Assembly (NCBI GenBank): GCA_019166125.1
Contig: JAHTBO010000009.1
Location: 62,001 to 126,000, forward strand
Source of the DNA: Alcaligenaceae bacterium CGII-47
Lineage (GTDB): Bacteria; Pseudomonadota; Gammaproteobacteria; Burkholderiales; Burkholderiaceae_B
DNA length: 64,000 bases
Reading direction: 5' to 3'
This document shows, one piece after another, positions 36,030-44,567 of the stretch (position 1 is its first letter; every line of letters starts with the position of its first letter). The position numbers and the translations under genes are program-made. Below the pieces are notes generated by a model that saw only the letters and a program-made list of their open reading frames with translations, was not told where the DNA came from and ran no database searches.

Positions 36030-36560
36030 ATGGGTTTGTCCGCAGCGGTCTGGACCTTGATTGTGCTGGCCTTGTTCAGTGCAAACCTGCCCTTTGTGCT
36101 CGATAGGCCGCTGGTGGCGTTTCCATGGCGTTTGCCGGGCGAGGCGCAACGCTCGGCCTCAACGCAGTGGCTGCGCAGCATTGTGTTTTTTATATTATTT
36201 GCAGCCTGGATTTGGCTGACCCATAAGTTGGTGGGTGAAGCATTTGCGGGGGGCGCTGCGACCGCGCTATTGTCCGTGGTAAAGGTGCTCTTGATGTGTG
36301 CGCTGGCGGTGGGCCTACTGCTTTACCCAGGTTGGCACGCACCTGCCGTCGATAAGCCGTTCATTGTGTGCTTGCTAGAGCTGATTGTCGGGTATGCGCT
36401 GGTGGGAACCTTGGGTTTTGCTCTGGAACTGAATATCGGCAATGCCTTTGCGCAGCGCTGGGAATTTTATGCGGTGACGCTGAGCTTGTTTTTCGTGCTG
36501 GGATATCCTGGGTTTGTGTATCGGTATATGCTGCGACGACGCCGACGGGCAGCACGATAA
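36030..36560 (+). CDS. DUF2818-family membrane protein
   Basis: 176-residue membrane protein of about four helices. The first (AVWTLIVLALFSANLPFV) and last parts (RWEFYAVTLSLFFVLGYPGFVYRYML) match the DUF2818 pattern; the gene is found after nuoN in many Burkholderiales. It is one base after nuoN, so it is probably the last gene of the operon and may help complex I assembly or stability. That role is inference; the family has no assigned function that I know. Confidence 0.8.
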   Translation: MGLSAAVWTLIVLALFSANLPFVLDRPLVAFPWRLPGEAQRSASTQWLRSIVFFILFAAWIWLTHKLVGEAFAGGAATALLSVVKVLLMCALAVGLLLYPGWHAPAVDKPFIVCLLELIVGYALVGTLGFALELNIGNAFAQRWEFYAVTLSLFFVLGYPGFVYRYMLRRRRRAAR

Positions 36561-36627
36561 AAGTGGCTCACGTACATATGAGGCGATCGCTGGCTATCCA
36601 TCCCTCAATCGGCCGACTTCAGTTCCT

Positions 36628-37266
36628 ATGATCCTCTACCTGCACGGTTTCCTATCCTCGCCTGACTCCTTTAAAGCCCGTGTGATGGCGGCTGCACTCG
36701 TCGATCGCGGGCTCGGGCATATGTGGTGTTGCCCGCAATTGCCCGCCAGTCCCCGTGCCGCCATGGAATTGGCCCTCAGGCACGCGAACGAGTGGCTCGA
36801 AACTGGAGGCGATGCTCGGGCGCTGACCGTGATGGGTTCCTCTTTGGGGGGCTTTTATGCGACCTGGCTGGCGCAGCGTCTTGGGTGCCGCGCGGTCCTG
36901 TTGAATCCGGTCGTCCATGCCGCGCGCGACCTTGCTACGCGGGTCGGTTCACACCGCATGTTTCATTCCGACGAATCATTCGAGTTTCTTCCTGAATACG
37001 TCGAGGAACTGGCGGCAGCCGAGTGCAGCACAATCACCGACCCTAGCCGCTATTTTTTGATTGCTGCCACCGGTGATGAGGTGCTCGATTGGCGAGAAAT
37101 GCGTGACTATTATGCAGGGTGTCGCCAGCTCATCATCCAAGGCAGCGACCATGGGATTTCCGATTTTCCCACCTACGTGCCCGAGGTTCTGGATTTCGCC
37201 CTTGATGTTTCCCGTATGATGTCCGAAGCACAAGGAACAGCAACAATGAATGCAAACTCAGGTTAA
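36628..37266 (+). CDS. YqiA/YcfP-type alpha/beta-hydrolase
   Basis: 212-residue single-domain esterase-like protein. It opens with MILYLHGFLSSPDSFKA (oxyanion HGF) and has the nucleophile elbow GSSLGGFYATWLA, an acid in ATGDEVLDW and the catalytic histidine in GSDHGISDF. ATG 36628 is chosen because it starts at the first strand; an upstream in-frame start overlaps the DUF2818 gene. Substrate unknown. The next gene starts 17 bases later. Confidence 0.85.
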   Translation: MILYLHGFLSSPDSFKARVMAAALVDRGLGHMWCCPQLPASPRAAMELALRHANEWLETGGDARALTVMGSSLGGFYATWLAQRLGCRAVLLNPVVHAARDLATRVGSHRMFHSDESFEFLPEYVEELAAAECSTITDPSRYFLIAATGDEVLDWREMRDYYAGCRQLIIQGSDHGISDFPTYVPEVLDFALDVSRMMSEAQGTATMNANSG

Positions 37267-37283
37267 GGGGATATCCACTTTTT

Positions 37284-38228
37284 ATGGGGAAAAAGCCTTT
37301 TCATACCTTCGAGGACCTCTATCGATTGGTTTCAGATGTACTCAGGCGACACGGCCTATCCGACGATCAAGGCGCAATCATTGCCCAGGCGATTGTCAGT
37401 GGTGAGCGCGATGGTTGCGATGCGCATGGTTTGTATCGCACGCTCTCGTGCGTGGAGGCGATGCAGCGCGGGCAGGTCGATGGACAGGCTCAGCCTGAGG
37501 TCCACGACCATGCGCCAGGGATTGTTCGCGTCGACGCGAAGCGCGGTTTTTCCCTATTAGCATTTGAGCGTGGCTTGCCCATGCTTGAACAGAAAGCCCA
37601 TGTGCAGGGGATTGCAGTTATGATGATTAATCATTGCTATCACTTTTCAGCGTTATGGTTCGAGTTGGAAAAACTCACCGAGCGCGGCTTGGTAGGGCTT
37701 GCGATGAATCCAAGTCATAGCTGGGTTGCCCCGGCCGGGGGGACAAATCCGGTATTTGGCACGAACCCCATTGCCTTTGGTTGGCCGCGGCCCGGGTCAC
37801 CTCCGTATATATTTGATTTTGCAAGCAGTGCGATTGCTCGTGGGGAAATAGAATTGCATCGGCGACGGGGTGAGCGCTTGCCAGCAGGGGTGGCGATCGA
37901 TGCCCGAGGACAGGCCACACAGGACCCAGTCGCCGCTATCTCGGGCGCCATGCTGACATTCGGGGGCCATAAGGGGTCGGCTTTGGCGACGATGATCGAG
38001 CTGCTGGCCGGGCCATTGATTGGGGATCTCACCAGTGCGGAGTCGCTTGATTTCGACCAGGGGGCACAGGTCGTTCCTTATCATGGAGAGCTGATTCTGG
38101 CGCTCGATCCCGAGGTGTTTTTGGGGCCGGCAAAGGATGCACATTGGTCACGCGCCGAAAAGCTATTTGACCCAGTGCGCGGCAAGCCTCGGCCTTCAGG
38201 CCGGGGAAGGATAGCGCGGACGGCGTAG
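37284..38228 (+). pseudogene. Malate/L-lactate dehydrogenase-family (Ldh) oxidoreductase, 5' part, broken by an IS element
   Basis: Residues 1-296 are genuine Ldh family: GERDGCDAHGLYR near residue 43, INHCYHFSALWFELEKLTE near 115 with the family's catalytic histidine region, GTNPVFGTNPIAFGWPRPG near 158 and TFGGHKGSALATMIELLAG near 230. The reading frame leaves its own sequence at Asp296 (codon 38169-38171) and runs 18 foreign residues into the element before stopping at 38228. The missing C-terminus lies at 39942-40079. Family members are NAD(P)H-dependent dehydrogenases of malate, L-lactate, sulfolactate or ureidoglycolate; the substrate cannot be told. The product is probably inactive, since the C-terminal arm is part of the dimer. 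Confidence 0.9.
38167..38171 (+). other. IS insertion site TTGAC (probable target and TnpB TAM)
   Basis: The element starts directly 3' of TTGAC. IS200/IS605 elements insert 3' of a short fixed motif without target duplication, and the same motif is the TAM used by TnpB. Its identity as the specific motif rests on this one copy. Confidence 0.7.
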
Positions 38229-38243
38229 CCGTCCTTTTGGTGG

Positions 38244-38660
38244 TCAGTGTGGCGTTTGCTGCTGTTCGATGTACTGGCGAATGATCTCGATAGGCGCACC
38301 ACCGCAACTACCAGCAAAGTAGGAAGGTGACCACAGGGCACCCGCCCATAGTTTCTTGCTGATGCTTGGGTAGTTCTTCTTTCGGATCATGCGACTGGAC
38401 ACACCCTTGAGGCTGTTCACTAGGTTGGAGACGGCCACCTTCGGCGGATAGTTCACCAGCAGGTGAACGTGGTCGTCCTCGCCGTCGAACTCCACCAATT
38501 CGGCCTCGAAGTCGGCGCAAACACTGGCAAAGATACTGCGCAAATCGTCGAGGACTTCCCTCGTGAATACCTCACGTCGATACCTGGTCACGAAGACCAA
38601 GTGGACGTGCATGAGAAAGACACAGTGACGACCGTGTCGTATATCATTGTTATTGCTCAT
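38244..38660 (-). CDS. tnpA: IS200/IS605 transposase TnpA (HUH/Y1)
   Basis: 138-residue Y1 single-strand transposase that cuts and joins the element ends as ssDNA, usually at replication forks. The HUH metal motif is His64-Val-His66 (DDHVHLLVN) and the catalytic tyrosine is Tyr130 (EIIRQYIEQQ) on the C-terminal helix. Length and both motifs are intact, so it is predicted active. Divergent from tnpB with 23 bases between starts. Confidence 0.94.
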   Translation of the reverse strand: MSNNNDIRHGRHCVFLMHVHLVFVTRYRREVFTREVLDDLRSIFASVCADFEAELVEFDGEDDHVHLLVNYPPKVAVSNLVNSLKGVSSRMIRKKNYPSISKKLWAGALWSPSYFAGSCGGAPIEIIRQYIEQQQTPH

Positions 38661-38683
38661 AGACCAAGAGTATAATCTGCGAT

Positions 38684-39898
38684 ATGCGACGCCTCCAAGC
38701 CTTCAAGTACGAACTTCGGCCCGATGGCCAGCAGCAGCGCCAGATGCGCCGCTTCGCGGGTTCCTGCCGTTTTGTATTCAACAAGGCGCTGGCGTTGCAG
38801 AAAGCGCGTTACGAGCAAGGTGAGAAAAAGCTCGGCTATGCCGGGTTGTGCAAGGAACTCACCGCGTGGCGCAATGGGCCTGAAACGCCGTGGCTCAAGG
38901 ATGCACCCGTGCATCCGCTGCAACAGACGCTCAAGGATTTGGAGCGCGCCTACGCTAATTTCTTCGCCAAGCGGGCCGACTTCCCGCGCTTCAAAAAGAA
39001 AGGCCAGTCCGACAGCTTTCGTTATCCCGACCCCAAGCAAATCAAGCTCGATCAGGGCAATGCTCGAATCTTCCTGCCCAAACTCGGCTGGCTACGCTAC
39101 CGCAACAGCCGAGAAGTGCTCGGCACGGCGAAGAACGTCACAGTGAGCCTATCAGGCGGTAAGTGGTTCGTTTCGATCCAGACTGAGCGCGAGGTCGATC
39201 AACCCCTACCGCAGTCCACGACGGCAGTGGGTATCGACATGGGTATCGCCCGCTTTGCCACCCTTTCGGATGGCTCTCATCTCGAACCGCTCAACAGCTT
39301 CAAGCGGCATGAATCCGCCTTGCGCAAGGCGCAACAGGCCATGAGCCGCAAGACCAAGTTCAGCAACAACTGGAAGAAGGCCAAAGCCCGCGTCCAGCGC
39401 ATCCATTCCCGCATCGGCAACACCCGCCGCGACTACCTGCACAAAGCCACGACCACGATCAGCCAAAACCACGCGATGGTGTGTATCGAGGACTTGCAGG
39501 TGCGCAACATGAGCAAGTCGGCGGCGGGCACAACCGAAGTGCCCGGCAGAAACGTTCGGGCCAAGTCCGGCCTGAACAAAGCCATCCTCGATCAAGGCTG
39601 GTTCGAGTTTCGTCGCCAACTGGACTATAAGCTGGCGTGGAACGGGGGCTATCTTATTGCGGTGCCGCCACAGAACACCAGCCGCACCTGTCCGGCGTGC
39701 GGTCATGTGTCGAAGGACAACCGACAGACGCAAGCGCAGTTCGCCTGCGTGGAATGCGATTTCGAGGAAAACGCCGATCTGGTCGGCGCGATGAATGTTT
39801 TAAGGGCGGGACACGCCCGGTTCGCCTGTGAAGTGAGTGGTGCAGCAAGGTCGCCAGCAGCAGGAACTCGCCGAGGTGAGTCAGTCCATCCGGGCTGA
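38684..39898 (+). CDS. tnpB: RNA-guided endonuclease TnpB
   Basis: 404-residue TnpB of the IS605 group, ancestor type of Cas12. It has an N-terminal helix-turn-helix region (RRLQAFKYELRPDGQQQRQMRR opening, given here as positions 2-23), the RuvC residues Asp185 (VGIDMGIARF), Glu269 (CIEDLQVRN) and Asp365 (ENADLVGAMN), and a zinc ribbon with CPAC and CVEC. All three acidic residues are present, so cleavage activity is expected. It helps the element persist by cutting the empty donor site. The overlapping 3' end and right end of the element should give its guide RNA. Confidence 0.94.
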   Translation: MRRLQAFKYELRPDGQQQRQMRRFAGSCRFVFNKALALQKARYEQGEKKLGYAGLCKELTAWRNGPETPWLKDAPVHPLQQTLKDLERAYANFFAKRADFPRFKKKGQSDSFRYPDPKQIKLDQGNARIFLPKLGWLRYRNSREVLGTAKNVTVSLSGGKWFVSIQTEREVDQPLPQSTTAVGIDMGIARFATLSDGSHLEPLNSFKRHESALRKAQQAMSRKTKFSNNWKKAKARVQRIHSRIGNTRRDYLHKATTTISQNHAMVCIEDLQVRNMSKSAAGTTEVPGRNVRAKSGLNKAILDQGWFEFRRQLDYKLAWNGGYLIAVPPQNTSRTCPACGHVSKDNRQTQAQFACVECDFEENADLVGAMNVLRAGHARFACEVSGAARSPAAGTRRGESVHPG

Positions 39899-39941
39899 AC
39901 ACGGTAGGAATCCCCTCACTTTAGGGAGGGGAGGATGTCAA
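39780..39941 (+). ncRNA. Predicted TnpB guide RNA (omega RNA) scaffold
   Basis: In IS605 elements the guide RNA is processed from the 3' end of the tnpB message through the right end. The terminal hairpin CCCCTC-ACTTTAGG-GAGGGG then GGATGTCAA is the expected end of the scaffold. The guide would be the following host bases from 39942 (TCGATTACTGCTAAGG). The 5' limit is approximate. Confidence 0.5.
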
Positions 39942-40079
39942 TCGATTACTGCTAAGGGGGCACGTCTGCCCTCACAGCGTCGATACGCAAAACGAGAGCA
40001 TAGTCGACAGCATGGTATCTCGGTAGACCCTAAGCTATATGCAGATGTTTTGGCCCGCCTTCATCCCGAAGATCAATGA
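39942..40079 (+). pseudogene. Malate/L-lactate dehydrogenase-family (Ldh) oxidoreductase, 3' part
   Basis: The last 45 codons of the interrupted gene. Read on from Asp296 of the 5' part they give EKLFD-SITAKGARLPSQRRY and then a helical end with YADVLARL, which is the normal Ldh-family C-terminus, and a stop at 40077-40079. Total reconstructed length is 341, the usual family size. Both halves appear undamaged otherwise, so precise excision would restore the gene. Confidence 0.9.
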
Positions 40080-40100
40080 GTTGATGCGCTTGGGCGTCAT

Positions 40101-40121
40101 CCTAGGTGCATTCCCTAGGTG
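40101..40121. repeat. Direct repeat CCTAGGTG x2
   Basis: Two copies of CCTAGGTG at 40101-40108 and 40114-40121, 13 bases apart, each with a palindromic CCTAGG core. They lie just upstream of, and touching, the -35 region of the candidate small RNA, so they may be an operator. Confidence 0.5.
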
Positions 40122-40147
40122 TGACATTACGAAACCTCGTGCATAAT
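40121..40147 (+). promoter_or_regulatory. Possible promoter of the candidate small RNA
   Basis: GTGACA (40121-40126) and CATAAT (40142-40147) are 15 bases apart, a little short of ideal. Start would be near 40154. Confidence 0.4.
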
Positions 40148-40153
40148 CTCGGC

Positions 40154-40267
40154 ATGCAGGTGAGGAGACAAGCCCAACATGGGCAGCGCCGATATACGGC
40201 ATTTCATCCGCTGTAACATAGAATAAAATCAAACGAAAGGGCCGACGACACAATCGTCGGCCTTTTT
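40154..40267 (+). ncRNA. Candidate small RNA upstream of the SMR efflux gene
   Basis: No reading frame fits this stretch, but it has the layout of a trans-acting sRNA: possible promoter, two small hairpins (GCCCA/TGGGC near 40172 and GCCG/CGGC near 40187), an A-rich single-stranded part (40216-40238) and a strong terminator. About 114 nt. I do not recognise it as a known family. Confidence 0.4.
40236..40267. terminator. Bidirectional terminator
   Basis: GGCCGACGA/TCGTCGGCC with a 5-base loop flanked by A and T runs. It ends the candidate sRNA on the plus strand and, read the other way, can end the minus-strand SMR gene, whose stop is 19 bases away. Confidence 0.85.
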
Positions 40268-40285
40268 CTTGTGCAAGAAATCTAA

Positions 40286-40611
40286 CTAGTGTGCGCTTGA
40301 TTTTGAAAAGATATTCAGCACCAGCACGCCGGCGACAATCAATCCGATGCCAATCAGGGCAGGCGTGTCCAGTGTCTGTTTAAACCAAAAATAGCCAATC
40401 AGCGAAATAGCGACGATACCGGCGCCTGACCAGATGGCGTAGGCGATGCCGACAGGAATGGTGCGTAGTGTGAGTGCCAGGCAATAGAAGGCGATGCCGT
40501 AGCCCACGATGGTTAGCAGGGCAGGGGCCCAGCGTGTAAATCCCTGAGAAGCTTTGAGTGCACTCGTGGCCACCACCTCTGCGGCGATGGCAATCGATAG
40601 ATAGAGCCAGT

Positions 40612-40615
<4 letters not shown>
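40286..40615 (-). CDS. Small multidrug resistance (SMR) efflux protein, EmrE-like
   Basis: 109-residue, four-helix proton-coupled exporter of the SMR family. The essential membrane glutamate is Glu13 ([14 protein letters not shown]), and [13 protein letters not shown] and the [12 protein letters not shown] ending are very close to E. coli EmrE. Likely substrates are quaternary ammonium or other lipophilic cations. Its ATG overlaps the stop of the upstream Smr-domain gene (ATGA), so it is the last gene of trxB-smr-emrE-like on the minus strand. Confidence 0.9.

Positions 40616-44567
<3,952 letters not shown>

Follow-up and report, generated by a model that had tools for sequence, protein, structure and literature searches.

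The stretch of DNA analyzed here (the window; 64,000 nucleotides of Alcaligenaceae bacterium CGII-47, contig JAHTBO010000009.1, positions 62,001 to 126,000) contains a complete IS200/IS605-type insertion sequence of 1770 bp, at 38172-39941, that lies 3' of a TTGAC target inside the gene for a dehydrogenase of the Ldh_2 family. The element truncates the gene, and its net effect is very likely a knock-out that is held in place, rather than a reversible switch. All coordinates given below are those of the window, and features are on the plus strand unless stated otherwise.

Results

When 37284-38171, encoding residues 1-296 of the dehydrogenase, is joined to 39942-40079, encoding residues 297-341 and the stop, the product is 341 codons plus a stop in an unbroken reading frame. 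The 5' part is assigned by the join, by its match to PF02615 and by a solved relative (1wtj), the 3' part, which has a conserved GARLPSQRR stretch, by the join and by alignment. A frame arising at the junction by chance was considered and rejected, because the joined residues carry on a conserved GARLP block, gap-free against three relatives, and because 83 of 83 homologous dehydrogenase loci span the junction (residues 280-310) in one piece. Eighty of these loci, the named relatives, are the best-scoring of 585 stretches confirmed in a scan with a four-row alignment (56-62% identity), a choice favoring unbroken genes. Since all 83 loci are continuous, the split is private to this genome among the loci examined, and none has the gene as the same two separate pieces.

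The original prediction, of an IS605-type insertion in an Ldh-family gene with boundaries exact to the base, is borne out by the join, by the PF02615 match and by another copy, on contig C38 of this genome, with identical ends (TTTGAC...TCAA); no boundary elsewhere was seen among the 38 right ends and 24 left ends read from copies of the element. The predicted absence of a target duplication likewise holds, with TTGAC (38167-38171) on the left side only and TCGATT on the right. Subterminal hairpins are present at both ends in place of terminal inverted repeats, as is typical of IS200/IS605 elements. The G+C contents of the element (58.2%), the window (57.4%) and the dehydrogenase gene (56.2%) are alike.

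The two genes of the element are divergent. That on the minus strand, tnpA (38244-38660; 138 residues), encodes a Y1 HUH transposase and is complete in its matches to Y1_Tnp in Pfam (149.5 bits, cut-off 23) and to the IS200/IS605 transposase in NCBIfam (153.5 bits, cut-off 55). Alignment to a solved relative, the transposase 2xm3 (82.6 bits), shows that HVH at residues 64-66, corresponding to the HUH motif, and the catalytic tyrosine, Tyr130, are kept. The plus-strand gene, tnpB (38684-39898; 404 residues), matches HTH_OrfB_IS605, OrfB_IS605 and Cas12f1-like_TNB in Pfam and is a complete RNA-guided TnpB in NCBIfam (NF040570, 371.5 bits, cut-off 100), while falling below the cut-offs of two narrower NCBIfam TnpB models (NF038281 and NF038280). 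It aligns over almost its full length with a solved TnpB, 8bf8 (195.7 bits), the RuvC residues Asp185, Glu269 and Asp365 and the zinc-ribbon cysteines being present. We take 2xm3 and 8bf8 to be the ISDra2 proteins. As the original prediction had it, therefore, both genes are complete, and by these comparisons their coding capacity is intact.

Apart from this tnpA, Y1_Tnp matches the genome once, as a fragment (profile positions 66-121) within the C38 copy, which is an internally deleted derivative; the full-length match is at the tnpA described here. Matches to the TNB domain number five, i.e. the tnpB described here, a C38 fragment, two near contig ends (on C1 and C12) and a short one on C24.

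Both ends of the element have the features from which its recognition of the target can be read. On the left, CAAG (38183-38186), the guide tetranucleotide expected to pair with TTGAC, is followed by a hairpin with an 8-bp stem and a 4-base loop (38187-38206; from the fold of the first 70 bases of the element). On the right, GAAT (39908-39911), the word published as the right guide of IS608 (PMC5934647), precedes a hairpin identified by folding and by the right-end alignment (39912-39931) and the right cleavage site TCAA (39938-39941), again as printed for IS608 (PMC5934647). For comparison, genomes were searched for DNA of the element at three taxonomic levels, with matches in 27 of 369 for the class, 68 of 399 for the order and 4 of 10 for the genus; these sets overlap and each includes the genome of the window. 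End sequences were drawn from the loci fetched, up to 30 per search (38 right ends and 25 left ends), leaving out of the counts those copies in which the left end or guide was unreadable from the fetched locus. All 38 distinct right ends, the window copy included, finish in TCAA, in part by construction, as the reading was confined to matches that extend into the last 3 bases of the element; some of them are matches of only 31-40 bases that may belong to neighboring groups, and one palindrome (L137), which matched in both orientations, may fall outside this family.

The left-end result is independent of this problem of construction. After a 28-bp match (L143) was dropped from the 25 rows, the guide words in the remaining 24 copies are CAAG, CAAA, AAAG/AGAG or AAAA, and in 19 of the 24 the expected partner (TTGAC, TTGAT, TTAC or TTAT, respectively) follows this code at positions -2 to +1 relative to the aligned junction, with CAAG and TTGAC in the window copy. 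In 20,000 shuffles of the labels the mean agreement was 5.2 and the maximum 14, none reaching 19; because the guide-to-target code was partly read from the same copies, the shuffle test is descriptive rather than independent. The agreement in these natural copies fits the pairing rule published for IS608, where pairing takes place between the target and the word preceding the left hairpin (PMC5934647), and the family has at least four different targets.

The right end of the element (39792-39941), which is also tnpB coding sequence up to 39898, is a predicted omegaRNA scaffold. In an alignment of 28 copies it folds into a common structure. For 20 of its 28 predicted pairs, one or more copies have both sides changed with pairing preserved; these comprise 7 of the 9 pairs in the last hairpin and 13 of the 19 others. 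This covarying right end backs, without proving, the presence of an omegaRNA. At Rfam gathering scores only two tRNAs are found in the window, the right end being without a match.

The predicted guide segment of this RNA comprises the first 16 nt of the right flank (39942-39957), within the dehydrogenase gene, by analogy with ISDra2, the TnpB of which is described as taking its 16-nt guide from the right flank and as using a motif identical to the transposition target (PMC8612924). In the predicted empty site, TTGAC runs directly into the flank from 39942, so that TTGAC would serve there as the transposon-associated motif of TnpB, as well as being the target and left cleavage site (PMC8612924). 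When TTGAY joined to the first 13 bases of the flank was sought across the genome, with as many as 3 mismatches allowed, there were five sites, all of them at 3 mismatches and none within 2, and a control search with the reversed pattern gave four; one of the five is the occupied site itself, with GTCAA where the motif would stand. The 18-base flank occurs once in the window. Thus, the arrangement is that expected of a TnpB targeting only the restored gene. Cutting of the occupied site by TnpB was also considered and is not expected; the occupied allele should escape because its guide match is preceded by GTCAA.

Aligned to its family, as the original prediction proposed, the 341-residue reconstruction gives a full-length match to Ldh_2 (PF02615; residues 9-331, 305.7 bits, cut-off 38.8). 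Its best solved relative is 1wtj, a ureidoglycolate dehydrogenase/delta1-piperideine-2-carboxylate reductase (232 bits, vs 124 for the next), and the enzyme is probably of the delta1-piperideine/pyrroline-2-carboxylate reductase kind of Ldh_2 NAD(P)H-dependent oxidoreductase, as judged from its sequence. A PF02615 search finds one place in the genome, the interrupted gene, and the joined protein finds only its own two halves.

The interrupted frame encodes 314 residues, the last 18 of which come from the left end of the element, and its Ldh_2 match stops at profile position 303 of 333. The lost residues 297-341 hold Arg304, Pro306, Arg309, Arg310, Arg314 and Gly321, all identical in 82 of 82 relatives. 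In the alignment to the solved relative, Arg309 and Arg310 correspond to Arg314 and Arg315 of DpkA, which are reported to bind the NADPH phosphate, and the C-terminal region of AllD is described as part of its Domain I (PMC3527362). Because these conserved C-terminal residues, including the arginine pair, are lost, the truncated product is very probably inactive.

The original prediction also stated that neither gene half has other damage. This holds in that no stop or frameshift is present; it does not hold at residue 47, which is Ala in the joined protein and Ser in 82 of 82 close relatives (the conservation set comprises 84 sequences, less L078, which was read past a stop near its end, i.e. 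82 relatives and the query). In place of a Ser-His pair before Gly-x-x-Arg, the protein thus has Ala47-His48, with His48 and Arg52 kept. A more diverse set of 29 relatives, 3 of them shared with the close set, has Ser (22), Thr (6) or Gly (1) in this column, such that Ser is common in Ldh_2 and not strictly defining. Ala47 aligns with Ser53 of DpkA, and the Ser-His-x-x-x-Arg spacing matches Ser43, His44 and Arg48 of AllD; the S43A variant of Escherichia coli AllD is reported to have a kcat/Km of 0.13 with (S)-ureidoglycolate, ~400-fold lower than that of the wild type, 54.3 (PMC3527362). Overall, the joined protein departs five times from columns at least 95% conserved in the other sequences, compared with fewer than five departures in 66 of 82 relatives and five or more in 16, the counts of the relatives being lowered because they are the best-scoring ones and largely from few genera. 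The enzyme may have been weak or altered, whether before or after the insertion.

A close intact allele by which to date the insertion, and so to judge whether it is recent as originally predicted, was found neither among the best 80 relatives (up to 62% identity) nor in nine congeners. Of the congeners, one (G005) carries a homologue with 51-52% identity, located elsewhere in its genome, and a second (G006) a distant one at 31%; 8 of the 9 are without a dehydrogenase homologue of G005-level similarity. In the collection of named genomes, a pattern scan with one protein picked out 32 stretches, none of them a confirmed relative, with records of the genome itself possibly excluded.

In the window the gene order over 36030-41328 is DUF2818, UPF0227 esterase, dehydrogenase, small multidrug resistance (SMR) protein and an Smr-domain gene. 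The esterase upstream of the dehydrogenase is present in all nine congeners; this gene order is absent from the 5.5-6.5 kb around the esterase in 9 of 9, and tblastn found none of nine other window proteins there. As none of the nine was found, the neighborhood is unusable for deciding between gain and loss of the dehydrogenase.

Discussion

Apart from the question of TnpB, this is an ordinary IS200/IS605 insertion of known type. The original prediction that the element is mechanistically excisable, leaving the empty site in frame, is in accord with the 341-codon join: following the published mechanism, TnpA would excise the element from single-stranded DNA and rejoin its flanks exactly. An omegaRNA with a right-flank guide (39942 onward) would then direct TnpB to cut the empty site, because this reads TTGAC and then the guide; copying from the sister chromosome would bring the element back, as in the model published for ISDra2, the occupied allele being spared. 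For ISDra2, TnpB has been reported to cut the empty site and proposed to reinstate the element from a sister copy (PMC8612924), and a preprint describes TnpB as a gene drive in plasmids (PMC11870625).

It is a serious possibility, which we advance tentatively, that the knock-out is in this way self-enforcing, i.e. that TnpB is programmed by the very gene that the element interrupts and that cells with the gene restored are cut until re-insertion. On the same proposal tnpA would move the C38 derivative in trans, and the knock-out would be one-way with tnpB present and reversible only after decay of tnpB.

The original prediction had raised the alternative of a switch, the dehydrogenase being turned on and off in the host through precise excision. 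An exactly restored frame would be left after excision, tnpA looks intact, and ISDra2 is reported to excise precisely with TnpA, restoring a tet reporter at ~2e-3 per cell in Deinococcus radiodurans (PMC2806898). Those rates were, however, measured on derivatives with tnpB removed (PMC2806898), whereas in the element studied here tnpB is intact and its predicted guide points to the restored allele; moreover, only TnpB-driven repair seems able to return the element to the same place. Because the predicted guide of TnpB, together with TTGAC, describes the restored gene itself, such a switch is disfavored and we consider it very unlikely. A literature search gave no title on phase variation of IS200/IS605 elements by precise excision, a result that concerns titles and makes no claim of absence from print. 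It is highly improbable that the insertion is nearly neutral by virtue of a 314-residue protein that still works: although residues 1-296 are retained, with both the N-terminal catalytic His and the central domain among them, the loss of residues 297-341 removes the six residues identical in 82 of 82 relatives, from a region that is part of Domain I in AllD and that in DpkA supplies the arginines for the NADPH phosphate (PMC3527362).

The element may instead have landed, at little cost, in a gene that was already inactive or functionally diverged, which is plausible, if somewhat doubtful. The substitution at residue 47, where 82 of 82 close relatives have Ser and 29 of 29 diverse ones Ser, Thr or Gly, is equivalent to the damaging S43A change in AllD (kcat/Km from 54.3 to 0.13; PMC3527362), and the gene looks orphaned, with no match to the Pro_racemase family in the genome, no pathway gene among its four typed neighbors and no similar homologue in 8 of 9 congeners. 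Yet the number of departures at conserved columns, at five, is reached or exceeded by 16 of 82 relatives, the frame has neither stop nor frameshift, and a Ser-to-Ala change is perhaps tolerated with another substrate, one diverse relative having Gly.

Several points weigh against the knock-out held in place by TnpB. The activities of TnpA, TnpB and the omegaRNA would have to be those of their studied counterparts, from which they are inferred. The fold of the right end falls short of proof because its last hairpin is shared with TnpA, because part of the region is tnpB coding sequence, and because the paired changes count sequences rather than events, uncorrected for relatedness. At the left end, 5 of the 24 copies (L119, L129, L145, L146 and L178) are without the exact predicted word, three of them (L129, L145 and L178) being one base off, and the partner list comes from the published IS608 and ISDra2 words plus the same table of copies. 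As to what is knocked out, the exact substrate on which the dehydrogenase acts can only be guessed, and its neighbors here, including the UPF0227 esterase and the SMR transporter, point to no pathway.

The locus is a clean natural case: precise excision should restore the frame of an enzyme, and what would undo the restoration is encoded by the element itself. It could be used to test whether TnpB locks null alleles made by insertion sequences in place on the chromosome.

Among studied elements, ISDra2 of D. radiodurans resembles that described here in having tnpA and tnpB of similar size and in inserting 3' of TTGAY without duplication. By contrast, the two genes are divergent here and partially overlapping in ISDra2 (PMC8612924), and the target is TTGAC rather than TTGAT. 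With IS608 of Helicobacter pylori it shares the right guide GAAT, the right cleavage site TCAA and the logic of left guide-target pairing (PMC5934647), but it uses CAAG and TTGAC where IS608 uses AAAG and TTAC; five relatives of the element (L120, L127, L171, L176 and L181) use AAAG and TTAC, as does IS608.

The dehydrogenase is likewise closest, among solved structures, to DpkA/delta1-pyrroline-2-carboxylate reductase, with a matching arginine pair in the split-off part; it differs in having Ala instead of Ser before the catalytic His and in being interrupted. There are no hydroxyproline-type neighbors among those typed here, whereas in Microvirga makkahensis (L041:6993-8750) an aconitase X gene stands directly after the dehydrogenase relative. 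The calls of longest open reading frames around the named relatives include many antisense frames and were used only for five proteins checked against Pfam.

Some further copies of the element are incomplete. The C38 derivative (L217, G000:C38:1-4500; 1260-2248) is a non-autonomous copy of 989 bp, 97.3% identical over the aligned part, which retains both ends; its tnpA and tnpB are broken, and it has lost four internal segments (287, 116, 297 and 81 bp), one or more of them between 9-bp direct repeats. A shorter relic in a congener (L214, G004:C10:48500-51500; at about 1735-1967) has the same deletion junction, element bases 1568-1648 being missing, and no similarity to the C38 flanks. Because the relic shares the junction but not the flanks, the derivative line may predate the species, or the same junction may have formed more than once at the 9-bp repeat.

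Near contig ends of the window's genome, another tnpB is represented by its 3' part at two loci (L007 on G000:C12 and L008 on G000:C1), where the right end is similar (GAAT, hairpin and TCAA). A copy in another genome of the class (L121/L146, G211:C69) is internally deleted, with both ends kept and element bases 725-1362 missing.

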